A DNA stretch of 64,000 nucleotides, taken from contig NC_088331.1 of assembly GCF_036884655.1 (NCBI RefSeq), positions 11,966,001-12,030,000 of the forward strand, read 5' to 3'. The notes beneath the pieces are model-generated. The model did no database searches. It saw nothing but the letters and a program-made list of their open reading frames with translations, and was not told the DNA's origin. Shown one piece after another: positions 25,545-51,012 of the stretch. The first letter of the stretch is position 1. The number at the start of each line of letters is the position of its first letter. This stretch comes from Musa acuminata AAA Group. Its lineage: Eukaryota; Streptophyta; Magnoliopsida; Zingiberales; Musaceae. The position numbers were made by a program, and so were the translations under genes.

Positions 25545-27170
25545 TTACTGTTGTTGATCATCACCAGCTCTCCTCTTGATCTTCACCCTCAGGCCATTTT
25601 TCAGGTGAAGGATGATTGAAAGCTTTGGCTCGACCACATGACCTGGAAGCACTTGAACTTGGAAGTTGTAGACCATGGCAGCCACCACTGCCTTCATCTG
25701 AGTGAAGGCCACTTCCTTCCCCAGGCAGGTCCTGGGGCCCGAATTGAACGGCATGAACTTGTAAGATGGCTCGTGCCGCACCCGCCCCTTCTCCGAGATC
25801 CATCTCTCGGGCCGGAACTCCAAGCAGTCCTTTCCCCATATCCCTTCCATCCTTCCCATCGAGTACAGGGAGACCAAGATCTTTGTGCCTGCTTCAACTC
25901 TGTGTCCACTCGGGAGGATTTCATGTCGCAGAGCTGCCTTGTGCTCGAAGGGAACGGGAGGGAACAGCCTGAGCGACTCGCAGAGGGCTGCATGCAGATA
26001 GACCAACTTGCTCAGCTCCTCGGTGTCGAATATGGTCATATCATTGGAACTCGATCTCTGTTTTCGCAAGGGTGTCGAACTCAATTCCTCGAGGATCTTG
26101 GACTCCACCACGGGATTTTTGCAGAGCAGCCAGAAGAACCATGTGAGCGCTGCACCAGTTGTGTCCCTCCCGGCAAGCATGAAGTTCATGGCGGTGTCAC
26201 GGACGAACTTGTCGAACTCGGTCGATCCTTGTCGATGGCTGTCTTGCTGCTCTTCATCGTCATCGTCGTTGATGTAAGACGATAGTAGATCGGCTTTTGC
26301 TTCGCCTCCAACGTCTTTTTTATTCCTGAGGCTTCTTAGTTTCTTCTTCTCCGCGATGCTTTCCGCTATATAACGGTCTATTACCTTCCATGACATCGCC
26401 AACTTCTTCTCGTCCCCGATCCTCAGCCATCTCGCCAACTTCCACCAGGCCGGCGGTACCGTATGCCGGAGCAACAAGGCGCCCATGGCGTCGTCCATGG
26501 CTCTGGCGAACGGGACTGTTGGCAACCCGATGGAGAGGCAACATGGATCGACGCCGAAAACCAAGTAGGAAGTGGCGTCGAAGGTCAACCTCATGAACAC
26601 ATCTTGCAAGTCCACCACCGCCCCTCGTCGCACGACATCGTCCACGAGTGGGATCAGTCCTTTCTCCACCTTGTTTCGAATAGAACTGGCAACGAAGGAC
26701 CGGAACCTGCGGCCGTTCATGAGGCCGTGGGCCTTCATTCTCTGCTTCTTCCACGACTCGCCGTCGGAGTTGAAGATGCCATCGCCGAGGATATCGAAGA
26801 TCTCCGAAAACTCCCCTCCCTTTGGGTAATTCGAGAAGTTCGCACTGAAGACGTGTTGCAGATTGGCGGGGTCGCAAGTGAACAGGTAGTCCATGCCCAA
26901 GAACCACGGGCCGCGGAAGAAAAAGTTGCACCCGACCACCCTAAGGAGGTCGGTGCACCAATCATGGAGGTGGTCGAGGTTCAGCAGAAGCCCCGGGAGC
27001 ATCCCGGCGAGCGGCCAGTCCACCGGGAAGCTCGACCTCCTAAAGACCCGGCCGAAGTAGCAGAAGAAGACGAAGCAGAAGATAGAGAGGAGGACCTCAG
27101 GGTACGATCGCAAGAAGACCTTGGCAGCCGCGAAGCAACTACCGGCCATGGCTGCTGTCGGAGAAGACAT
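25545..27170 (-). CDS. Cytochrome P450, CYP96-like (CYP86 clan)
   Basis: Single-exon gene, 541 residues, normal length for the family. Members of this clan hydroxylate fatty acids and alkanes at the ER; the Arabidopsis CYP96 enzyme MAH1 makes secondary alcohols and ketones of cuticular wax. Seen in the protein: an N-terminal membrane anchor (about residues 24-40), the basic/proline hinge ([10 protein letters not shown]), the I-helix motif AGRDTT (333-338), ExxR as ESLR (398-401), PERW (454-457) and the heme loop [10 protein letters not shown] (475-484) with Cys482. All key residues are present, so the gene is probably functional. A second in-frame Met at residue 8 is an alternative start. The 5' end and upstream region are duplicated at 11.1-13.3 kb. 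CYP96 versus CYP86/94 is from overall look and the lack of introns; substrate is unknown. Confidence 0.9.
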
Positions 27171-28600
27171 GCTATCTGTTTACAGAAGGATTGCAGCGAG
27201 AGAAACTTGGACCGAAGCGAGAGAGGAAATGCCGTATCTCGACAGGTTTGTATGGCTATCGGTGCTGCTGCCACATCAACCGTCCTAAATAGTAGAAATC
27301 TGCGAAGTCGATGAGTGCGAAGGGATAGCCACGGAAAACGACATACCGACAGACACGTCAAGTCTACCAGCGTCGCGGTCTTTCCGACGCTGACTGCAGC
27401 CACTCCACCGCTACGTGTTCCGATTCAACTTACGACCCGATCCACGCCAAGAGGAGGCACAGGGTCAGCCACGTCGTGCGTTAGCAAGAGACGCGTATAA
27501 TTCTATTATGACATGAGCTCACAGGAAATACCATGCCCACCATGCATTCATTGTCATGTGCAGGTCGACAAAGGATCGCAATGCATCTGTCAATTAGACA
27601 ACTGTCTTGTTCAAGATGAGGCATGTAGATTTTGGTTGCATCTTCTTGCGCTGAGAAGGTTCTTTGCATCGAACCAGAAATAGTGAAACGAAGACACGCA
27701 GGAGTCGTGCCATAGAGTTTAATTCAAGTGTGATTGCTACGCACACCCAAGTGATATTGTGGTCGTTGCGTGATTTCCAATGCTATAATTAAATCTTAAT
27801 GTCCGCCCAACCAGTAGGTGATAATTAAATCTTTACTCCAAATCGACGGTAGCTAATGCAGAATGTTGACTGAGTGCAGCATAGTAGCCTCATCTGTAAG
27901 ATTACTGATGACGATGGGAGGAGAGGACCACTCAATTATTCTTGATACGTGATTAAATTATAAACATGACAATTAGGTAAGAGACATTAATGCGTGTTTT
28001 TGGCTCTTCTGCAAACTCCAAGGGTCGTGAGTCCTGCAAAGCTTGTTGACTCTCACCCTGTGCTTCAATTATCTTATGGGGGCTTATTCCACCGACGGAC
28101 TTCCATCTGAATCATCTTTATATCATCGGAATCACAACGCATGATTCTATCATAAGCTTAGTTGTCTGCCTTTTGTCATCTTCTCACCTTCATAAATGCG
28201 TCTTGTTTGCTTTCCGTGTTTGATGACCTTGAGAAGTTTTGAAATGTCGAATTTACCTCCCAAAAGTCGCATATATGCATCTCTACCTTGTGAATTTTTT
28301 GGTACCCTTTAAATTATACATATCTATTCATCATAATGTGACATCCACGTACTACTGTCATAATTACCGTAAAATTTACTTGTTATATGTATGATAAAAG
28401 AACACATCATTTTTAGGAGGTACCCTTTAAATACGTATGATATCCACATGATAATTATCATAAATCATACTTGTTATACGTAGGAAAAAAAGGACACCCT
28501 TTTTTCAGAAGCATAAATGCCAAAATCAAATAAGAATGTTCAAAACGAACTTTGAGCAAGACAGACTTGAAACACACATTGATTAAGCTTTAATTTTTTA
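27171..28600. other. Upstream region of the P450 gene
   Basis: Non-coding. 27171-28246 is the source of the duplicate at 11396-13322. I see no convincing TATA box; CTACTATTTAGGAC on the minus strand near 27290 is the closest. 28295-28505 holds two diverged direct copies of a GGTACCCTTTAAAT..GTTATA(T/C)GTA segment. Confidence 0.7.
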
Positions 28601-30087: not shown

Positions 30088-33000
30088 TGTTAGGATCAAG
30101 AGCACTAAGAGGGGGGGGGGTGAATTAGTGCAGCGGAAATCTTTCACGATAAAAAATAATGTTCGAACGATAAAAATAATTTAGGTATGAAAGCCGATTC
30201 TAATATTACTTTAACTTAAGATCAAGCGAGATGACGTTAAAGTAAATCTATGAAGGCAGTTTGCAGTTATGATGAAAATCAGAATATAAGCGCAAACTGA
30301 AATACGACGTTCGTACGATAAAAGCGATTTCGTCTAAACGTCGATTCGGAAAGCACTGAACTTTGAAACACGTTCGTAAAAGCACAGAATGCAGTAAGCT
30401 ATTGAGGAGGTTTGCAGTAAAGATAAGATGCTCAAAGTACATGCAAACCGAGATTTAGAGTGGTTCGGTCAATCTTGACCTACTCCACTTTTGGCTTCCT
30501 CCACCGACGAGGTCACCAACGTCAACTAGAGGCCTTCCTTCAATAGGCGAAGGCCAACCACCCTTTTACAGTTTCACTCCTTTTGACGGGCTTAGGAGAC
30601 AACCCTTACAGAATTTCCTTTTCTCTCTTAACATATTAGAACTTGGAAGAAAAGAGGAAGAACTTTCAACTCATACAACACTTTTGAGCTCTAAAAATCA
30701 CAAAGTAAAATCAGAATTTTGGTGGTTTCTGGGTGCCCTTTCAGTGCTGAAAGGGTGGGGTATTTATAGGCCCCAACCCAGTTTGAATTTGGAGCTCAAA
30801 ACTGTCAATTCCCGAAATTTCGGGATCTGGCGGTTGCACCGCCTAGCAAAACTCGAAGACTGAGCCTCTGGGCGGTGCCACCTCCTGTCAGGGGCGGTTG
30901 CACCTCCTGCCAGAGCTCAAAGACCGAGCTCAAGCGGTGCCACCGCCTGACTGAGGTGGTTGCACCGCTCAGCCAGAGCTCGGAGACCGAGCCCAGGCGA
31001 TGCCACCTCTGTCAGGGGCGGTTGCACCTCCTGCCAGAACTCGAAGACTGAGCTAAGGCGGTTGAACCGCCTGGCAGAAATCAGGGTCCGAATGGATTGA
31101 TCCATTCGGCCCAATTTGGGTTTCTCAAGGGCCCAATTGCCCCAAGATTAAGTTAATGGGATCACCTTCCATTTCCAACTTAATCATTGTGCTAACTATG
31201 ATATTTCCTAAGATATTTACTGCAACTTACTCCGGTGCGTCAATCGCTTCTTCCGACGAGCTTCCGGCGAACTTTCGTCGATCATCTGATGAACCCTCGG
31301 TGATGCTACTGCGGACTTCCGGCAAACTCTTGGACTTGCGACGATCCACTTGGCGAGTTCCGACGAGTTTCTTTGGCAAGCTCATGGGTGAATTAGTGCA
31401 GCGGAAATCTTTCACGATAAAAAATAATGTTCGAACGATAAAAACAATTTCGGTATGAAAGCCGATTCTAATATTACTTTAACTTAAGATCAAGCGAGAT
31501 GACGTTAAAGTAAATCTATGAAGGCAGTTTGCAGTTATGATGAAAATCAGAATATAAGCGCAAACTGAAATACGACGTTCGTACGATAAAAGCGATTTCG
31601 TCTAAACGTCGATTCGGAAAGCATTGAACTTTGAAACACGTTCGTAAAAGCACAGAATGCAGTAAGCTATTGAGGAGGTTTGCAGTAAAGATAAGATGCT
31701 CAAAGTACACGCAAACCGAGATTTAGAGTGGTTCGGTCAATCTTGACCTACTCCACTTTTGGCTTCCTCCACCGACGAGGTCACCAACGTCAACTAGAGG
31801 CCTTCCTTCAATAGGCGAAAGCCAACCACCCTTTTACAGTTTCACTCCTTTTGACGGGCTTAGGAGACAACCCTTACAGAATTTCCTTTCCTCTCTTAAC
31901 AGATTAGAACTTGGAAGAAAAGAGGAAGAACTTTCAACTCATACAACACTTTTGAGCTCTAAAAATCACAAAGTAAAATCAGAATTTTGGTGGTTTCTGG
32001 GTGCCCTTTCAGTGCTGAAAGGGTGGGGTATTTATAGGCCCCAACCCAGTTTGAATTTGGAGCTCAAAACTGTCAATTCCCGAAATTCCGGGATCTAGCG
32101 GTTGCACCGCCTAGCAAAACTCGAAGACTGAGCCTTTGGGCGGTGCCACCTCCTGTCAGGGGCGGTTGCACCTCCTGCCAGAGCTCAAAGACCGAGCTCA
32201 AGTGGTGCCACCGCCTGACTGAGGTGGTTACACCGCTCAGCCAAAGCTCGGAGACCGAGCCCAGGCGGTGCCACCTCTGTCAGGGGCGGTTGCACCTCCT
32301 GCCAGAACTCGAAGACTGAGCTAAGGCGGTTGAACCGCCTAGCAGAAATCAGGGTCCGAATGGATTGATCCATTCGGCCCAATTTGGGTTTTTCAGGGGC
32401 CCAATTGCCCCAAGATTAAGTTAATGGGATCACCTCCCATTTCCAACTTAATCATTGTGCTAACTACAATATTTCCTAAGATATTTACTGCAACTTGCTC
32501 CGGTGCGTCAATCGCTTCTTCCGACGAGCTTCCGGTGAACTTTCGTCGATCATCTGATGAACCCTCGGTGATGCTCCTGCGGACTTCCGGCAAACTCTTG
32601 GACTTGCGACGATCCACTTGGCAAGTTCCGACAAGCTTCTTTGGCAAGCTCATGGGTGAATTAGTGCAGCGGAAATCTTTCATGATAAAAAATAATGTTC
32701 GAACGATAAAAACAATTTCGGTATGAAAGCCGATTCTAATATTACTTTAACTTAAGATCAAGCGAGATGACGTTAAAGTAAATCTATGAAGGCAGTTTGC
32801 AGTTATGATGAAAATCAGAATATAAGCGCAAACTGAAATACGACGTTCGTACGATAAAAGCGATTTCGTCTAAACGTCGATTCGGAAAGCACTGAACTTT
32901 GAAACACGTTCGTAAAAGCACAGAATGCAGTAAGCTATTGAGGAGGTTTGCAGTAAAGATAAGATGCTCAAAGTACATGCAAACCGAGATTTAGAGTGGT

Positions 33001-35731
33001 TCGGTCAATCTTGACCTACTCCACTTTTGGCTTCCTCCACCGACGAGGTCACCAACGTCAACTAGAGGCCTTCCTTCAATAGGCGAAGGCCAACCACCCT
33101 TTTACAGTTTCACTCCTTTTGACGGGCTTAGGAGACAACCCTTACAGAATTTCCTTTTCTCTCTTAACATATTAGAACTTGGAAGAAAAGAGGAAGAACT
33201 TTCAACTCATACAACACTTTTGAGCTCTAAAAATCACAAAGTAAAATCAGAATTTTGGTGGTTTCTGGGTGCCCTTTCAGTGCTGAAAGGGTGGGGTATT
33301 TATAGGCCCCAACCCAGTTTGAATTTGGAGCTCAAAACTGTCAATTCCCGAAATTTCGGGATCTGGCGGTTGCACCGCCTAGCAAAACTCGAAGACTGAG
33401 CCTCTGGGCGGTGCCACCTCCTGTCAGGGGCGGTTGCACCTCCTGCCAGAGCTCAAAGACCGAGCTCAAGCGGTGCCACCGCCTGACTGAGGTGGTTGCA
33501 CCGCTCAGCCAGAGCTCGGAGACCGAGCCCAGGCGATGCCACCTCTGTCAGGGGCGGTTGCACCTCCTGCCAGAACTCGAAGACTGAGCTAAGGCGGTTG
33601 AACCGCCTGGCAGAAATCAGGGTCCGAATGGATTGATCCATTCGGCCCAATTTGGGTTTTTCAAGGGCCCAATTGCCCCAAGATTAAGTTAATGGGATCA
33701 CCTTCCATTTCCAACTTAATCATTGTGCTAACTATGATATTTCCTAAGATATTTACTGCAACTTCCTCCGGTGCGTCAATCGCTTCTTCCGACGAGCTTC
33801 CGGCGAACTTTCGTCGATCATCTGATGAACCCTCGGTGATGCTATTGCGGACTTCCGGCAAACTCTTGGACTTGCGACGATCCACTTGGCGAGTTCCGAC
33901 GAGCTTCTTTGGCAAGCTCATGGGTGAATTAGTGCAGCGGAAATCTTTCACGATAAAAAATAATGTTCGAACGATAAAAACAATTTCGGTATGAAATCCG
34001 ATTCTAATATTACTTTAACTTAAGATCAAGCGAGATGACGTTAAAGTAAATCTATGAAGGCAGTTTGCAGTTATGATGAAAATCAGAATATAAGCGCAAA
34101 CTGAAATACGACGTTCGTACGATAAAAGCGATTTCGTCTAAACGTCGATTCGGAAAGCACTGAACTTTGAAACACGTTCGTAAAAGCACAGAATGCAGTA
34201 AGCTATTGAGGAGGTTTGCAGTAAAGATAAGATGCTCAAAGTACACGCAAACCGAGATTTAGAGTGGTTCGGTCAATCTTGACCTACTCCACTTTTGGCT
34301 TCCTCCACCGACGAGGTCACCAACGTCAACTAGAGGCCTTCCTTCAATAGGCGAAGGCCAACTACCCTTTTACAGTTTCACTCCTTTTGACGGGCTTAGG
34401 AGACAACCCTTAAAGAATTTCCTTTCCTCTCTTAACAGATTAGAACTTGGAAGAAAAGAGGAAGAACTTTCAACTCATACAACACTTTTGAGCTCTAAAA
34501 ATCACAAAGTAAAATCAAAATTTTGGTGGTTTCTGGGTGCCCTTTCAGTGCTGAAAGGGTGGGGTATTTATAGGCCCCAACCCAGTTTGAATTTGGAGCT
34601 CAAAATTGTCAATTCCCGAAATTCCGGGATCTGGCGGTTGCACCGCCTAGCAAAACTCGAAGACTGAGCCTCTGGGCGGTGCCACCTCCTGTCAGGGGCG
34701 GTTGCACCTCCTGCTAGAGCTCAAAGACCGAGCTCAAGCGGTGCCACCGCCTGACTGAGGTGGTTGCACCGCTCAGCCAAAGCTCGGAGACCAAGCCCAG
34801 GCGGTGCCACCTCTGTCAGGGGCGGTTGCACCTCCTGCCAGAACTCGAAGACTGAGCTAAGGCGGTTGAACCGCCTGGCAAAAATCAGGGTCCGAATGGA
34901 TTGATCCATTCGGCCCAATTTGGGTTTTTCAGGGGCCCAATTGCCCCAAGATTAAGTTAATGGGATCACCTCCCATTTTCAACTTAATCATTGTGCTAAC
35001 TACGATATTTCCTAAGATATTTACTGCAACTTGCTCCGGTGCGTCAATCGCTTCTTCCGACGAGCTTCCGGCGAACTTTCGTCGATCATCTGATGAACCC
35101 TCGGTGATGCTCCTGCGGACTTCCGGCAAACTCTTGGACTTGCGACGATCCACTTGGCGAGTTCCGACGAGCTTCTTTGGCAAGCTCATGGACTTCTCGG
35201 ATTTATTCCCGCAGAACCTCCGACAACTATCTGAACTTCCGTCGAACTCTCGAACACCCAACGTGATCATTGTCTTGACTCCGGCGCAACTCCTGCTGCA
35301 TATCTTACTTTCATCGTAGTTAATCCTGCACACTTAAAACAAAACTTCGATTGAGATAATTAATCCTAAGCAATTAACCAAGTTGTCCAACATGTCATTG
35401 GTCCTTCGACGCTTCGTCCGATTCTTCGGCGTATCATCCTCTCCTGCAGCCTATTGCCCAATCGGCCAGTTGACTCCGCAACTCCGATATCCTTGGCACA
35501 ATACCCACTCTTCTTGGCCCGATGCCCGAGTCCACGGCCCGAAGCCTTCTGTCGATACGTCGACCGATCCACCGGCCCGACGTCCAATCTTCTGACATGT
35601 TCCTCCGGCACAACATGATTTTCCTGCTTTAATTGTCTCATCCTAATCGAAGCATCCTGCGTCACTCAAAACGCAGATTAAATCATAAACATATATCAAG
35701 TAGTTTCCGTATCAAAATACGAGATTCAACA
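30088..35731 (-). mobile_element. Solo SIRE-type LTR, 5.6 kb, with four internal 1268-bp tandem units
   Basis: The ends are those of the family: on the minus strand TGTTGAATCTCG at 35731 and GATCCTAACA at 30088. A perfect 5-bp duplication AATCA flanks it (30083-30087, 35732-35736), so it is one integration event with no internal region left. Units start at 30121, 31389, 32657 and 33925, each with the palindrome zone and a TATA-like ATTTATAGGCCCC stretch. The junction phrase CTCATGGGTGAATTAG joins unit end to unit start; after unit 4 the ordinary LTR continues (CTCATGGACTTCTCGG) to 35731. Without the extra units the LTR would be about 1.8 kb. Confidence 0.93.
30121..35191. repeat. 1268-bp tandem array, four copies, ABAB pattern
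   Basis: Spacing is exactly 1268 bp between the first units. Copies 1 and 3 share variants against copies 2 and 4 at many places: CATGCAAACC/CACGCAAACC, TCTTAACATATTAG/TCTTAACAGATTAG, AAATTTCGGG/AAATTCCGGG, GGCGATGCC/GGCGGTGCC, CACCTTCC/CACCTCCC. This indicates that a two-unit block was duplicated as a whole. Confidence 0.93.
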
Positions 35732-42450: not shown

Positions 42451-42942
42451 TGTTGAATCTCGGATTTTGATGATGAAACTAATTGATTGTGTTTAGATGT
42501 TTAATTGTATTTTGAGTGATGTAGGTCTACTCGATCAGGATTAGACAGTTGACGCAGGAGGAATTGACGTTGCGCCGGAGGAGATCACATTAGGATATTG
42601 GACGGTAGAAGGCTTCAGATGTCGGGCATTGGGCCAAGGAGAGAAGAATTGCACCAAGGATATCGGGGTTGCAGAGGTCAATCGCTAATTGGGCAACAAG
42701 CCGCAAGAGAGGATGATGCACTGAAGAATCGGACGAAGAGCCAACCAATGACGTGCCGAGCAACAGAATGTCAATTCGCATCGTAATAATTGTCTAGATC
42801 GGAGTAGAGTTTTGGCTTGTATGTGTAAGATTAACTACGATAACTACAAAGACATAAAGCAAAACAAAGTGTCAGAGTCAAGCGCAAAGGATTCGTTGCA
42901 AGTTCAAGAGTTCGACGGAAGTCCGAAGGTTCGTCGAGAATG

Positions 42943-43921
42943 TGATAAGACCCTAAAGATCTTATCGTAGACTCTGATACCAAATGATAAGACCCTAAAG
43001 TCTTATCGTAGGCTCTGATACCAAATGATAAGACCCTAAAGGTCTTATCGTTGCTCTAATACCAAATGATAAGACCCTAAAGATCTTATCGTAGGCTCTG
43101 ATACCAAATGATAAGATCCTAAAGTCTTATCGTGGAAGAAAAGGGAGAAATGGGGATGATAATGATCGCTTCGAGGGGATCAGCCTCCTTGATCGCTTCG
43201 AGGGGATCGGCCCTCCTTGATCGCTTCAAGGGGATCGGCCCTCCTTGATCTCTTCGAGGCGATCAAGGAGGGCCGATCCCCTCAAAGCGATCAAGGAGGC
43301 CGATCCCCTCGAAGCGATCATTATCATCCCCATTTCTCCCCTTTCTTCCACGATAAGACTTTAGGGTCTTATCATTTGGTATCAGAGCCTACGATAAGAT
43401 CTTTAGGGTCTTATCATTTGGTATCAGAGCGACGATAAGACCTTTAGGGTCTTATTATTTGGTATCAGAGCCTACGATAAGACTTTAGGGTCTTATCATT
43501 TGGTATCAGAGCCTACGATAAGATCTTTAGGGTCTTATCATTTGGTATCAGAGCCTACGATAAGACTTTAGGGTCTTATCATTTGGTATCAGAGCCTACG
43601 ATAAGACTTTAGGGTCTTATCATTTGGTATCAGAGCAACGATCCTTGGCACAGCCCACCGCAACCTTTCTTCCCTTCTTCCCCACCACCACTACAAGGCA
43701 ATTCTTTATTCACCGTTGTCGCTACCTCCAAGCCCTGCTCCTCTTCTCTACCGCTGTTGTAGGGCAACTCCTTCTCCACTATCGTCGCTAGTCTTATCAT
43801 TTGGTATTAGAGCCTACGATAAGACTTTAGGGTCTTATCATTTGGTATCAGAGCCTAGATAAGACTTTAGGGTCTTATCATTTGGTATCAGAGCCTACGA
43901 TAAGACTTTAGGGTCTTATCA
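42943..43921. mobile_element. 979-bp palindromic element made of short LTR-like and PBS units
   Basis: Inserted in the 5' LTR of element 2 with a GAATG duplication (42938-42942, 43922-43926). The 3' LTR at about 49880 shows the empty site. It starts TGATAAGACC and ends GGTCTTATCA. It is built of 41-42-bp units: a 24-25-bp self-complementary box (CGATAAGAC..GTCTTATCA) plus TTTGGTATCAGAGCC, the tRNA-Met primer-binding sequence. Five units point one way (42943-43132), seven the other (43351-43638), around a ~218-bp palindromic centre of GATCGCTTCGAGGGGATCGG repeats. Then follow 150 bp of unique CT-rich DNA and about three more units. No coding capacity. Confidence 0.9.
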
Positions 43922-44760
43922 GAATGCTGCCGGAACTAGCCGAGAATGAGTAGGGAGCTTGCCGAAGGGTTTTTCGAGAGCTCGCCAGAAGGTTCGTTGG
44001 AAGTTCACGGAGCTCGACGAGAAAGGTCGGAGCTTGCCGAAGAAGCTCGTTGAAACTCGCCAAGATCAAATCATGAAGTCTAAGAGCTTGCCGGGAGTCC
44101 ACAGAATGTTTTCCGAGAGTTTATCGGAAGACCGCCGGAAGTTCACCGGAAGCTCGCCGGAAGAAGTCTTGACTTACGGACTTTGTAATAGCTTAGGAAA
44201 TGTCTTTAAATTCATAGTTAGCACATTAATTAGGGTTAGGATTAAGTGTTAATCCTATAACCCAAGTAGGGGCCAATTGGGCCCGAGTTCGGACTGGTTT
44301 GGGCCAAGTTTAGAGCCCAACCAATGAGCTGAAATAGTGTAGGCGGTGGCACCGCCCAGAACCCGAGAACTGAGCGGTGGCACCGCCCAACACCCGCCAG
44401 CCTAGGAAACCCAAGAGAATTCAAAATTTGGAGCCCAAATTTGAATCCTCTTGGGGCCTATAAATACCCCTCAATTCTCAACTGAGATTACAACTTTTGT
44501 AAAAGAAATAGATTGAGATAAAGGTCTTAGAAAAGTCTTTAGCAAGTCTTGTCTTAAATTGCTTGAGTATTCACCTCCGTCTTCCTCTTAAAAAATTGTA
44601 AGAGTATGAACCACTTATAAAAGGTTGTAAGAGGGGTATTTGTCCTTCCCCTTCAAAGAGATTTGCTAGTGGAAGTTGGGAGCCTCGTTGAAGAAGGCTT
44701 CGCAAGTGGATGTAGGTCATTTGATCGAACCACTAAATTGGCATGTTCATTGAATGTGTG

Positions 44761-45118
44761 ACCAAAATGCTTAATCGGGAGTTAACATAGTACACTTCTC
44801 AGGGCCCTTATAAGCTAATCATACACATTGCCCACTTCTGATGTGGGACTAATGGTGGGATGTTACAATATCCCCAACTCAATTAGCTTGCAACATATCC
44901 CAGATCGAATCCTCTCACCCTGCCCAAATGCTAGGTCGGCTCTGATACCAAATGTCACAACCCGAGTTTGATGAGCCAACTGGCCAATAACTCCATTTTG
45001 GTCCTTCAACCACGGACCAAAATGCTTAAGCGGGAGTTAACGTAGTACACTCATCAGGCCCTTATAAGCTAATCATACACATTCCCCACTTCCGATGTGG
45101 GACTAATGAGATGTTACA
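44761..45118 (-). mobile_element. Truncated TRIM retrotransposon
   Basis: On the minus strand: a full LTR (45118 to 44953, 166 bp, TGTAACATCTC..GTTGTGACA), TT, the primer-binding site TGGTATCAGAGCC (44950-44938), 60 bp of interior, the purine tract GAGTTGGGGATAT, then a second LTR (44877 downward) cut at 44761. The truncation coincides with loss of the end of the surrounding SIRE LTR. Such a short non-coding element with a Met PBS fits TRIM. The LTR holds a plant snRNA-type promoter motif. Confidence 0.85.
45062..45103 (-). promoter_or_regulatory. USE-like and TATA motifs in the TRIM LTR
   Basis: The minus strand reads GTCCCACATCG (45103-45093), an exact match to the plant snRNA upstream sequence element RTCCCACATCG. 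A TTATAA box (45067-45062) begins 25 nt downstream. In plants this shorter spacing is typical of Pol III-type U6 genes and about ten more bases of Pol II-type snRNA genes. Function is inferred only from the motifs. Confidence 0.6.
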
Positions 45119-45129
45119 GTTACTCTCTC

Positions 45130-45969
45130 ATTCATCCTCCCTTTTTCAATGGGACGGACTACACTTGTTGGAAAACTCGAATGAGAGTTTTCTTACTTTC
45201 TTTGGATTTGAATTTATGACACATAGTCGAAAATGGATTTGAAATGTCTTCTCTCCCAATGAACCATTGGAATGATTTGGAGAATAAGATGTTTTCTCTA
45301 AATGCAAAGGCTATGAATGTCTTATATTGTGCACTTGACAAAAATGAATTTAATCGCGTTTCGATGTGTGACTCGGCTTTTGATATTTGGAGAACTCTAG
45401 AGGTCACTCATGAAGGCACTAGCCAAGTGAAAGAGTCCAAAATCAATATTCTTGTGCATTCTTACGAATTTTTCCGAATGAAACCAAGTGAGTCCATCGG
45501 AGACATGTACACCCGTTTCACGGATGTCATCAATGGACTAAAAGTTCTTGGTAAAAGTTTTTCTAATTTTGAACTAGTCACTAAAATCTTAAGATATCTT
45601 CCCAAAAGTTGGGATCCAAAAGTTACGGTCATTCAAGAGGCTAAGGACCTTAAAATATTCCCTCTCGAAGAACTTATTGGGTCTCTAATAACCTACGAAA
45701 TGAACAATGTGACAAAAATGGAACTCGAGAACAACCTTCCAAAGGACAGGAAGGATTTGAGACATAGAACATTTGAAGACCACTTGAGCATAAGCTCAAG
45801 TGATGGTGAATTCAAACTCACTAAGAAATTTAAAAAGTTAGTGAAACAAAAATTTAAGAATGAAAAGAACAGAACTGCTTGCTTTGAATGCAAGAAAAAG
45901 AATAAGAATTGGGATGAATCGAGCTCCTCCGAAGACAAAGAGAAAATCAAGAAAGGCGAGGTGGCATAG
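45130..45969 (+). pseudogene. SIRE-like gag (UBN2-type) with a nonsense codon and broken zinc knuckle
   Basis: The frame opens with the gag signature FNGTDYTCWKTRMRVFLLSLDLNL and meets TGA at 45217-45219, where a Trp codon would be expected. It then stays open to 45969. Capsid-like body: WRTLEVTHEGTSQVKESKINILVHSYEFFRM, YTRFTDVINGLKVLGK and PKSWDPKVTVIQEAKDL. The zinc knuckle stops after CFEC and goes straight into an acidic tail (WDESSSSEDKE), so the GH..C half is missing. Pol would normally follow; an AT-rich spacer does instead. Confidence 0.88.
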
Positions 45970-48900
45970 TGGCAAACTATGCCATAACCACTTTCAACGA
46001 TGAGGTAATCGAAATCCTCCCAATTTATTTTGAAATTACTTAATGCTTTCCATGATGCATTTTCTTTTTATTAGTTTAAAAAAATTATTTTTAATTGCTT
46101 AATGTAATGAAAATGAAAAAATTAGGAATCATGCTTATCATTCTAGTAATTTTGAAAATAATCATGAAAATTGTATGTTTATGATAAACAAAATGATTTT
46201 GATTAAAAATGTCTTATATGATATCGTGCCTAATAAATTTATTTTTTGAAACTATGCATGATGATGATGAGTTTTGGGTAATTTATAATTTATTGATTTT
46301 GATGATTTCCTTGATGATCTTTTGCGATTTATAGATTATCAATTTTTACCGTGATGAAAGTTGCTTTTAAAAATGATGCACGGCTTTTGTATGCAAACTA
46401 AGCATGAAAAGATAGATTCACCTAAAAAGAAAAATGCATGACTACAACAAATAACAAAATGATTTTGTTTGAAAATGCCTTATGCCCAATGAAACCATCA
46501 TTGATGAATATGCTTTATATTTAATAGTTTCTTTGGCTTATATGCCTTATCATGATAAACGTTTTGAAAAGTTTGTATCATACTTGATGATTGTTATACA
46601 TGATTTATTGGTCTTGAAGTTATTCAACTTTGATTAAATGAAATCATGTTTGACTTGAAGTAATGAGTTGAAATAATTTTTTTTTTTAATTATGTGTTGC
46701 ACATTTTTTTTTATGATTTTTGATCTTTCGGTTTTAAATGATGATGCATGGATTTGAAAAAAATAAAATAAAAGGACATGCATGTATGGAATCAATCAAT
46801 AAGTTGAAACAAAAGGAGGAAAGATTTTTTTATTAAAAATTTTCTTTTTCTCTATCTTATTGATTTCTACCTAAGAGACCAATAAAATTATTTATGCCAT
46901 TTTGAATCTCTTGAAAGAAATGTTGAGATTTTGATGATTTGGACAATTTGAATTTGAATGAGTTTTATCCAAAATCATGATCTTGATTTCGTGATATTTA
47001 CAAATTAAGATTTATTATGAATCAAGTTTTTTTCATTAATCGATCTCCTAAGATTTTCTTTTGATTATTTATGAGTAGGTTTTTCAAAAAGAAATCATGC
47101 CTTGCGGTATTCACATGTTCTAATCTTTCATGATATGATTTTTATGCAATTCCTTGTATTCATGAAATGTTTATCGCATCACCCAATTACTTTCTTCTTG
47201 ATATTCCTTATGTGGTGATATAAAATTATGCATGAAATACTCTTGATATTATTTTTATGCATACAAATGAAAAGTTATGATCATGAATGGTCGAATAAAA
47301 TTTGACAAGTTAATACCATCATGATTTGAAACATTTATGATTTGAAATTATGCATGCAATTGCTTTTTATTGTGATGATATATGCATATAATGTGTATCA
47401 TGAATACTTTATTATCATACATGAAAATAGTGATAAATATTTTGAAAATAAATGTTTGTATCATGTTAGATGATTTTACATTTTGTGCATGATGAGTTAT
47501 AGTGATGATTGAAACAATGATTGAAATAATATGAATGATGATTTGGAATCATGCATATAATGATGAGTTTATATGTTTTAAAAATATATATGATGATTTG
47601 GTATTATGTATGCAATACTTTAACGTATGATAATGATGCACGCAATGATGAAATATTCATGATAAAATTATTATTTTGATATTCATGACTTGAATCTTCC
47701 TTTTCCTTTTGCCAATGACAAAGGGGTAGAAAGAGTTGCTAATGTGCTATCTTGAATTGATGTAAAGGGTCATCTCAAAAAGAAATTAGCTAGCTTGCAC
47801 AAGTCAAAAAAATACAAAAACTTACAAATCTTTAAATTTGCTAGCTTGTATATAGTAAAACTTGTATATCGTAAAAATTGCTAGCTTGTAGAGAAGCAAA
47901 CAGCTGCTATCTCAAGAAAAACAAAAATGCTAAACTTGCACATATTTAATTGCTACATTGTATGATGATAAAACTTGATATTATATTTTTTTTTCATACA
48001 ATGTATTGAATTTTTTATCTCTAAACACTTGATGCTCGGAATATTTTAAAATGTGATCTTGATAAGAATGTTTCAAGTTGCTCTTTGTGCTATATCTTTT
48101 CAAATGAATCATGAGCCTTGATATCATATATTTTATAATATAGAAATGACAAGATTTCTTTGCCTTGTATGCCTTATGTGATGATTGTACATCAATTTGC
48201 TTTATTATGAATTATATGAATCTTGATCGTGAACTTGTTAAAAAAAATTTTAATGAAACATGAATCATATCTTTGGTATTCATGAATTGATCCTTATTGA
48301 TATATTTTATGAATTCTTTGCATATTTAGCTTGTTGAATGGTTCAAATTTTTAGCCATTGAGTCCTTCCTTTCTTTTTGACTTTGATAAAGGGGGAGAAG
48401 GTTTTGCTAGCTTATGCATTGAAAATGAAAGTAAACTTCCTAGCATGCTAAGGAAGTAAAATGTGCAAGCTTGCACTTCTAAAAAAGAGAAGAAAGATCT
48501 TGCTTATCAAAAGAAGCAAAAAGTGCAAAACTTAGAAAACTTGCAACAAAATTGCTTTTACCATGCTTTGTATCAAAAATAGGTTGATATCCTTAAAAGC
48601 ATCGCATTAAATTTTTTAGTGTATCGTAATGTATCACATGTATCGCAAATTGAAAATTTTGAGACTATTATCATATCATGTTTAACAATTGATATCTTTC
48701 ATTGATATGATAAATTATCATCTCATGATGTATCGCATAATGATATCATGATTTGCGATTGTATCATGTGATCCTTGCTAAATTTTCACATTGATATCCT
48801 TCATGAAATGATTTCTTTGCATTATTATCTTGTATGCATCATGTGATGATTGAAATATTGATTGATGCAAAGTTGATGTAAAAGTCTAAATCATTGGTTC

Positions 48901-49396
48901 CTCTCCTTCTTTTTGACATTGACAAAGGGGGAGAAAGTTATTGCTAGCTTGCACACTTAGAACGAAGAATTTGCTAGCTCGATCATTGTAATGAAGAAAT
49001 TTGCTATATCAAAGTGCAATCTTGCACAAAAATTCAAGTGTTGAATTGCCATGATTGAACTTAAGAATCTTGCTATGCTTTTGTGCTTATATGTTATGAT
49101 GAAAATCTAGCTTCATGTTGCAAAAACTTATATATCTTTTAAAATAGCTAGAGCTACTTCTCCTTTTTGTTGATGACATAGGGGGAGAAGTATATTGATG
49201 ACTTCATGCATTGAATTGAATATTTTATATATTTACATGATGGTTTAAATAACATGTGATGAATGTTACTTGGATTTAGGATAATCCAAGTGTTCTATCA
49301 ATGGCATATTGATAGTGGGAGTTTGGTTAAACTCCAGGGAGTTAAGGTTAACTCCGTTAGTCATCAATTAGTTGTCATCATCAAAAAGGGGGAGAT
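45970..49396 (+). mobile_element. AT-rich spacer and polypurine tract of SIRE-like element 2
   Basis: 3.4 kb of AT-rich, non-coding DNA full of ATGATT-type words. TTGCTAGCTTG-type phrases occur repeatedly from 47790 to 48960. Copies of the motif GACAAAGGGGGAGAA sit near 47717 (imperfect), 48384, 48921 and 49174, before the true tract at 49383. The final 200 bp (GTTAAGGTTAACTCCGTTAG, CATCAATTAGTTGTCATCATC) match the same place in elements 1 and 3. Confidence 0.8.
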
Positions 49397-51012
49397 TGTT
49401 GAATCTCGGATTTTGATGATGAAACTAATTGATTGTGTTTAGATATTTAACTGCATTTTGAGTGATGCAGGTCTACTCGATCAGGATTAGACAATTGACG
49501 CAAGAGGAATTGACGTTGCGCCGGAGGAGATCACGTCAGGATATTGGACGACAGAAGGCTTCGGACGTCGGGCATCAGGCCAAGGAGAGCAGAATTGCAC
49601 CAAGGATATCGGGGTTGCAGAGGTCAACCGTCGATTAGGCAACAAGCCGCAAGAGAGGATGATGCGCTGAAGAATCGGACAAAGCGCCAACCAATGACAT
49701 GCCGGGCAATAGAATATCAATTCGCGTTGTAATAATTGTCTAGATCGGAGTAGAGTTTTAGCTTGTGTGTGCAGGATAACTACGATAACGACGAAGACAT
49801 AAAGTGAAACAAAGTGTCAGAGTCAAGCGCGAAGGATTCGTTGCAAGTTCGAGAGTTCGACGGAAGTCCGAAGGTTCATCGGGAATGCTGCCGGAACTAG
49901 CCGAGAATGAGTAGGGAGCTTGCAGAAGGGTTTTTCGGAAGCTCGTCGAAAGGTTCGTTGGAAGTTCGCGGAGCTCATCGAGAAAGGTCGGAGCTTGCTA
50001 AAGAAGCTCATTGGAACTCGCCAAGATCAAATCGTGAAGTCTAAGAGCTTACCGGGAGTCCGCAGAATGTTTTCCAAGAGTTTATCGGAAGACCGCCGAA
50101 AGTTCACTAGAAGCTCGCCGGAATAAGTCTTAACTTACGGACTTTGTAATAGCTTAGGAAATGTCTTTAAATTCGTAGTTAGCACATTAATTAGGGTTAG
50201 GATTATGTGTTAATCCTATAACCCAAGTATGGGCCAATTGGGCCCGAGTTCGGACTGGTTTGGGCCAAGTTTAGACCCTAACTAGTGAGCTGAAATAGTG
50301 TAGGCGGTGGCACCGCCCAGAACCCGAGAACTGAGCTGTGGCACCGCTGGACTAAGCGATGGCACCGCCCAGCACCCGAGAGGTCCAGCGGTGGCACCGC
50401 CGGACTGGGCGGTGCCACCGCCAGTACACTGTCAGTGTCAGACACTAACAGGCAGTGGCACCGCCAGCCTCGGAAACCTAAGAGAATTCAAAATTTGGAG
50501 CCCAAATTTGAATCCTCTTGGGGCCTATAAATACCCCTCAATTCTCAGTTGAGATTACAACTTTTGTGAAAGCAATAGATTGAGATAAAGGTCTTAGAAA
50601 AGTCTTTAACAAGTATTGTCTTAAATTGCTTGAGTGTTCACCTCCGTCTTCCTCTTTAAAAATTGTAAGAGTATGAACCACTTGTAAAAGGTTGTAAGAG
50701 GGGTATTTGTCCTTCCCCTTCAAAGAGATTTGCTAATGGAAGTTGGGAGCCTCATTGAAGAAGACTTCACAAGTGGATGTAGGTCATTTGACCGAACCAC
50801 TTTAAATTAGCGTGTTCATTGAATGTGTGAGTACTTACTTTTCTGCAATCGTTATCTACACAACAGCAAGTTTCTGGTTTCTACTTTACTCAAGTTATAA
50901 TCAAAGCGAAATCTTTTTACATTTTACGGAATCATTTTCGAACTTACAAGTTTTAATCCGCTACATTAATTCACCTCCCCCCCCCCCTCTTAGTGTCGTT
51001 CCGATCCTAACA
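49397..51012 (+). mobile_element. 3' LTR of SIRE-like element 2 (complete, 1616 bp)
   Basis: Intact reference copy of the family LTR in this window: TGTTGAATCTCGG..GATCCTAACA, with TATA box CTATAAATACCCC at 50525 and a palindrome zone at 50300-50475 holding about seven GCGGTG(G/C)CACCGC units. The 5' LTR of the same element holds only about two such units at 44340-44400. Confidence 0.93.

Follow-up and report, generated by a model that had tools for sequence, protein, structure and literature searches.

We describe a palindromic insertion of 979 bp (positions 42943-43921; C5:12008943-12009921) in a 64,000-nucleotide stretch of Musa acuminata DNA, hereafter the window. The insertion probably derives from minus-strand strong-stop DNA: primed at an inner primer-binding site (PBS) of a parental LTR retrotransposon, this DNA would have primed its own copying within the core repeats of U5, replaced plus-strand strong-stop DNA and been integrated. 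The anatomy of the insertion, its target-site duplication and its empty site can be read directly, as can the repeated occurrence of such structures in the genome and the 3′ LTRs that end at an inner unit of the primer-site array. The insertion starts with TGATAAGACCCT and ends with AGGGTCTTATCA and, as an earlier note on this DNA had claimed, the palindrome has GAATG on both sides and an empty site in the sister LTR of its host element, where GAATG occurs once (49883-49887). Its parts and surroundings are as follows.

42938-42942, no strand: left target-site duplication GAATG, equal to 43922-43926 and to the single copy at 49883-49887
42943-43133, minus strand: left arm, an inverted U5 array of five LTR-end boxes and four PBS words
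43134-43241, minus strand: left half of the centre, core tail and 28-bp core repeats, inverted
43237-43246, no strand: turn-round point of the inverted repeat, 10 nt between the arms, TCTTCGAGGC, around TCGA
43242-43349, plus strand: right half of the centre, core repeats and tail in LTR orientation
43350-43636, plus strand: right arm, seven LTR-end boxes, each followed by TT and the PBS TGGTATCAGAGC
43637-43789, plus strand: 5′ leader fragment, cut short, CGATCCTTGGC..., like the leader 3′ of the last PBS in other copies
43790-43921, plus strand: 3′ LTR tail, a partial box and three complete ones separated by PBS words, U5 end ..TCTTATCA
43922-43926, no strand: right target-site duplication GAATG
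42454-44761 (ends approximate), plus strand: host LTR, of an element with a copia gag, that received the palindrome
49400-50830 (ends approximate), plus strand: the host element's sister LTR, which contains the empty site (49883-49887)

Counted from the centre, the box variants run ACT, ATCT, ACCT, ACT and ATCT in the left arm, and the same five followed by two more in the right arm. The arms (42943-43236 and 43247-43540) align over 294 nt with 12 mismatches, in support of their being copies of one another; all 12 are transitions, which has the look of decay after exact copying. The outer end of the left arm is exactly an LTR 3′ end (TG...). We saw no U3 start or TATA-like box in 42943-43921, the left end being the inverted U5 array, and the element lacks the two direct LTRs with U3 of an LTR retrotransposon. 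The window contains 19 matches to the PBS word with at most one mismatch (14 inside the element, 0.18 expected) and 16 to the LTR-end word with at most two (15 inside the element, 0.25 expected). The earlier suggestion of a relative of LTR retrotransposons integrated with a 5-bp duplication is supported. Between the seventh right-hand unit and the duplication lie 153 bp of a different sequence (43637-43789) and a series of LTR ends, the first partial and the next three complete; this tail (43637-43921) was absent from the earlier description. A second contig carries the same insertion (C27:8339474-8340453) within a 6,025-bp alignment at 98.2%, so a single-locus assembly error is unlikely.

Other features of the window were recorded alongside. 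The copia gag (PF14223, profile match) was found only in the host element, at 45220-45969. An apparent ordinary TRIM on the minus strand (44768-45130), recognised by eye, has the PBS TTTGGTATCAGAGCC adjoining TGTGACA; it interrupts the end of the left host LTR and offers a useful comparison of LTR-PBS junctions. A unit of about 1,268 bp is repeated four times head-to-tail at 30118-35191, the copies being about 98% alike, and a 544-aa ORF at 25545-27179 (minus strand) resembles, by eye, a plant cytochrome P450.

To place the element in a family, we searched it against the window's own genome (1.53 Gb, 1,060 contigs), scoring the best 40 of 3,915 first-look candidates; the 40 places counted comprise the window and places in 38 fetched stretches. 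By eye, about 11 of these 38 stretches show inverted parts, and the others carry the core and the array in one direction. The first 45 nt of the LTR, with at most three mismatches, have 2,796 genome matches (1,296 + 1,500) and none in the reversed control. Ordinary anatomy is seen in copy L024 (C12), flanked by the duplication CAATT. Its LTR of about 600 bp, with a TATA-like box, reads TGTTAGGACCC...TATAAATAGGG...28-bp core repeats...tandem box-TT-PBS array...box ending TCTTATCA; the 5′ LTR is followed by the PBS (TTTGGTATCAGAGC) and a leader (CGATCCTCGGCG), about 2.6 kb of internal sequence, a polypurine tract and the 3′ LTR (GAAGAGGGAGGAAC followed by TGTTAGG). The array unit is thus only the last ~24 bp of such an LTR plus PBS, and not the mini-LTR it had been called. 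A 425-aa internal ORF matches Retrotrans_gag (PF03732, E 7.4e-16) and Ty3_capsid (PF19259, E 4.1e-12), which contradicts the proposed copia membership; this gag ORF, the LTR length of about 600 bp and the long internal sequence likewise speak against a TRIM derivative. No pol ORF was recognised within L024, for which the ORF list of one copy was used and one internal ORF was profile-scanned. The family looks like a non-autonomous LTR element of Ty3 type. Non-autonomous Ty3/gypsy LTR elements with gag only constitute the TR-GAG type, which L024 resembles in its LTRs, PBS, polypurine tract and gag ORF, and from which the present family differs by the array of LTR ends and PBS and by the 28-bp core repeats in U5.

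The parent family has the direct LTRs, TG..CA ends, 5-bp duplication, PBS and polypurine tract of LTR retrotransposons. The duplications are exact in the ordinary copies L024, L028 (GGTCC) and L043 (AGGAT) and agree at four of five positions in L030; solo LTRs are flanked by TAAAC (L027/L029) and TCGAT (L041). Among the matches listed, the nearest named relatives of the gag come from Zingiber, Ensete and Musa, and a comparison of the L024 gag with solved structures gave no match. The word joining LTR end and PBS had 0 matches in viral contigs and 0 in prokaryote contigs, the element had no match in plasmids, and no tRNA gene was found in the 64-kb window. An Rfam scan of 42451-50830 returned 20 weak matches, 14 of them in the hairpin centre, none at gathering score and none a hammerhead; the absence of a hammerhead among these matches leaves no indication of a retrozyme. 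Similar junctions turn up on two or three contigs each, which suggests that the genome may be polyploid or phased.

In this family, U5 consists of the 28-bp core repeats followed by a tandem array whose unit of 41-42 bp joins the last ~24 bp of the LTR, two bases and a primer site, which we take to be that of tRNA-Met. Because each primer site has an LTR end directly upstream, priming at any site would yield a valid LTR end; the 3′ LTR should then end at the primed unit, and the 5′ side keep the whole array. Four ordinary copies were read at both ends (L024, L028, L030 and L043; L044, taken as the homologue of L043, was left out), and in three of them the end of the 3′ LTR lies at an inner unit, as would follow from tRNA priming at that unit: the 3′ LTR retains one of the six units of the 5′ array in L028 (a count of six made on the fetched stretch, of which the box parser caught four), two of five in L043 and five of six in L030, where private variants stand in the same order in the 3′ LTR and the 5′ array. 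The fourth copy, L024, has six boxes at either end, the series being 1, 2, 3, one additional box, 4 and finally 5 or 6, and its 3′ end is ambiguous, an inner and the last primer site being indistinguishable. Some arrays (L049, L064, L066) have a longer unit that includes part of the core tail (about CATTTCTTCCATTTCTTCTACGATAAG).

A census of palindromic sites was made with two inverted-junction patterns, which matched 52 and 48 times in forward form, the reversed controls matching 3 times each; a narrower junction pattern gave 4. The matches listed for the two patterns (50 and 48) reduce to 65 places, of which 50 include core-repeat sequence and 15 lack it. About a dozen of the 50 core-type places are, by eye, homologous contigs and one tandem pair, leaving ~38 sites. 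Sites were sampled by similarity to the palindrome and by the core patterns; 19 of the 50 core-type places were opened, so the 50 may include places that are not palindromic elements. Since the patterns require a core junction, they would miss palindromes that turn elsewhere. One small further region, directly upstream of the core, was covered with exact words for inverted junctions, which gave 0 and 0 matches against the 50 core-type junctions, a weak control as many copies differ there.

The general plan is of U5 ends on both sides, arms that turn inside the core, and a right arm that usually continues into PBS and leader. Among the 11 sites readable at both ends, six have exact 5-bp duplications (the window, L031, L036, L047, L048 and L049), four have duplications matching at four of five positions (L010, L011, L017 and L051) and one has none (L066), whereas with swapped partners only 1 of 110 pairings reached at least 4/5. 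For L047, L048 and L051, the 1-2 kb between the two fetched ends are an unread gap; the left end of L049 was read as TGAATAAG, one base longer than usual, and L031 breaks elsewhere, its core-array arm being joined to an inverted piece made up of 3′ LTR and internal sequence. Dropped from this count were two head-to-head full elements (L013, L062), L045 with its 3′ end lost, L052 and L053 with broken left ends, L063 with its left end outside the stretch, L061, L064 and L065 with right ends outside the fetched stretch, and the complex L023 and L026; L042 and L009 were left uncounted beside L051 and the window. At 10 of the 11 sites, a U5 end adjoins a duplication of at least 4/5, six of them exact, and U5 ends that meet the duplication at left and right alike indicate that the palindrome was already present when integrase acted.

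At all of the 13 independent sites, the right arm has at least as many boxes as the left, with three ties (L047, L048 and, in the script, which missed a box with an insertion, L011). The right arm is followed by PBS and leader at nine of the 13; in L036, the array continues with a seventh box that is broken, and in L010, L049 and L066 the element ends directly after the right arm. Except on homologous contigs, no palindrome is shared between the sites read, and box counts and arm tails differ among them. L042 and L051, which we take for a single insertion carried by two homologous contigs, differ in core-repeat number, and palindromes may thus be remodelled after insertion. We rejected the idea that each distinct core junction marks an independent birth, as this one insertion has two junctions and L010 and L048 share one type; given that junctions can change later and be shared, we rely on sites, duplications and arms.

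The strand switching during reverse transcription put forward in the earlier note is supported as the probable origin, in the following form. We infer the priming, self-priming, strand transfer and integrase action from sequence. The parent would be a non-autonomous LTR retrotransposon whose LTR end carries tandem tRNA-Met primer sites, and the tRNA would have primed at the fifth of seven. Reverse transcriptase would copy U5 into the core repeats, giving minus-strand strong-stop DNA, whose 3′ end would fold back within the 28-bp core repeats, with their self-complementary words GATC and TCGA; the folded strand would then serve as its own template, up to its 5′ end and on into the tRNA. In general, priming at unit i would yield [inverted i units-core][core-i units-PBS]. 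This PBS-bearing hairpin would substitute for plus-strand strong-stop DNA, anneal to the minus-strand PBS and be elongated across the last two units, the leader and the rest to the end of the 3′ LTR; in the window element, an internal deletion that starts in the leader and reaches the 3′ LTR tail has presumably removed part of this. The integrase of an autonomous element would finally join the U5-U5-ended DNA and make the 5-bp duplication. By eye, GATC and TCGA words recur in the junctions; DNA folding of the core strand was not more stable than that of shuffled sequences (z -0.19). Contrary to the simple scheme, the 3′ LTR of L047 has four boxes and its right arm three. Also outside it lie L066 with no duplication, the broken left ends of L052 and L053, the head-to-head whole elements L013 and L062, and the inverted forms with other break points (L031, L045, L063). 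In L045 and L063, a complete LTR has an inverted U5-core piece attached at its U3 start, an arrangement that the simple model does not predict. Together, the forms of L013, L062, L031, L045 and L063 indicate that the hairpin step is not the only rearrangement.

Comparison of the arms bears on whether one molecule or two took part. In L036, L048 and L051, the arms match each other at 58/59, 59/59 and 52/53 positions and their own 3′ LTR at 53-54/59, 53/60 and 49/53; being closer to each other than to that LTR, they were probably supplied by a second strong-stop molecule. In L017 and L047, by this measure, the closer partner of the right arm is the 3′ LTR and not the left arm (L011 was left out of this comparison). 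It is unlikely, though seriously to be weighed, that the nascent strong-stop DNA changed template to another strong-stop DNA present within one particle, which would give an identical product. The probable presence of two templates in L036, L048 and L051 agrees with such a switch, as do TTCGAA junctions that, by eye, leave no room for a hairpin loop, and the structure of L031, in which a core-array arm adjoins inverted 3′ LTR and internal sequence. When the short core tail is compared, the partner arm is a best match for only 20 of 30 arms (at 15 of 17 loci), a count against the fold-back reading that is limited because many core tails are alike; at six loci (L010, L036, L048, L061, L064 and L065), however, each arm has the other as its sole best match, most in keeping with a single molecule. 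If both RNAs were alike, the switched and folded-back versions would look alike.

Self-priming of one strong-stop molecule before integration has also to be set against changes made afterwards. That an ordinary LTR insertion was made palindromic by DNA repair or replication fold-back is very unlikely: the apparent remodelling of L042 versus L051 and the irregular ends of L052 and L066 are in its favour, but an ordinary insertion puts U3 (TGTTAGG) at the left duplication, where 10 of 11 sites, at 4/5 or better, have a U5 end.

Foldback elements are characterised by long inverted repeats. Such repeats are the likeness between the present element and foldback elements such as Tetris (PMC4079207). 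Tetris is a DNA transposon, unlike the present element with its U5 ends and PBS words. The foldback-like parasite that the earlier note considered, spreading as a palindrome by means of the integrase of an LTR element, appears very unlikely on the sites read. In its favour are the U5-U5 ends with 5-bp duplications, the inverted core junctions at about 50 places and the junction type shared by L010 and L048; against it, box counts and arm tails vary among the sites read (19 of 50 places opened), a shared palindrome is seen only on homologous contigs, and the palindromic end is without a U3 part. An assembly artefact or satellite array scarcely deserves credence, even though tandem and inverted repeats are hard to assemble, since the structure is present on two contigs, its arms are diverged and not mirrored, and the duplications present at many genome sites are at odds with the ordinary satellite without target duplications that had been named as the contrary outcome.

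Self-priming of HIV strong-stop DNA has reportedly been treated by Guo (1997) and by Golinelli and Hughes (2001). The available portions of two later sources call this reaction aberrant and “suicidal” and reduced by nucleocapsid (PMC4668388, PMC3141651); the proposed fold-back and self-copying are the same reaction, but here it would have led to an integrated product. Tandemly arrayed TRIMs are described in the consulted sections of Gao et al. 2016 (PMC4717578), along with a maize case of two inverted TRIMs within a single 5-bp duplication (CTTCA), which our palindrome resembles as a small LTR-element structure with inverted halves and one such duplication. As presented there, tandem TRIMs repeat whole LTRs and internal regions, whereas the present family repeats only the LTR tail and PBS and has a gag ORF; the paper also mentions a rice copia element in which 25 bp, including the PBS and ending in TGGTATCAGAGCC, are duplicated (PMC4717578). 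Tandem LTR structures are likewise discussed in the accessible parts of PMC7215508 and PMC11899658. The former offers template switching as one origin of tandem Cassandra arrays, whose likeness to our case is in the tandem LTR structure; as there described, their unit is an LTR plus internal domain in direct orientation, unlike the present unit of LTR tail and PBS (PMC7215508). In the titles and abstract openings of the open-licence papers that our searches returned, a scope outside which most subscription papers fall, we found no report of tandem PBS units in an LTR and none of integrated self-primed strong-stop DNA.

Fold-back strong-stop DNA thus seems to have reached the chromosome, and about a dozen similar cases in this genome suggest that a reaction deemed suicidal for retroviruses can yield integrated DNA. 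It is possible, if rather doubtful, that redundancy of primer sites lets the tRNA start at any unit, that fold-back in the core gives strong-stop DNA a plus-strand start of its own, bypassing the polypurine tract and U3, and that U5-U5 proviruses are a standing output of this lineage. If our interpretation is true, genome sequence would provide a test of whether reverse transcription of one RNA starts at several primer sites, with the end of the 3′ LTR recording which site was used, and of the rescue and integration of self-primed strong-stop DNA, a dead end in HIV work. Annotators of LTR elements would have to reckon with genuine insertions whose LTRs are unequal or whose U5 ends are inverted, and which may be dismissed as artefacts or satellites.
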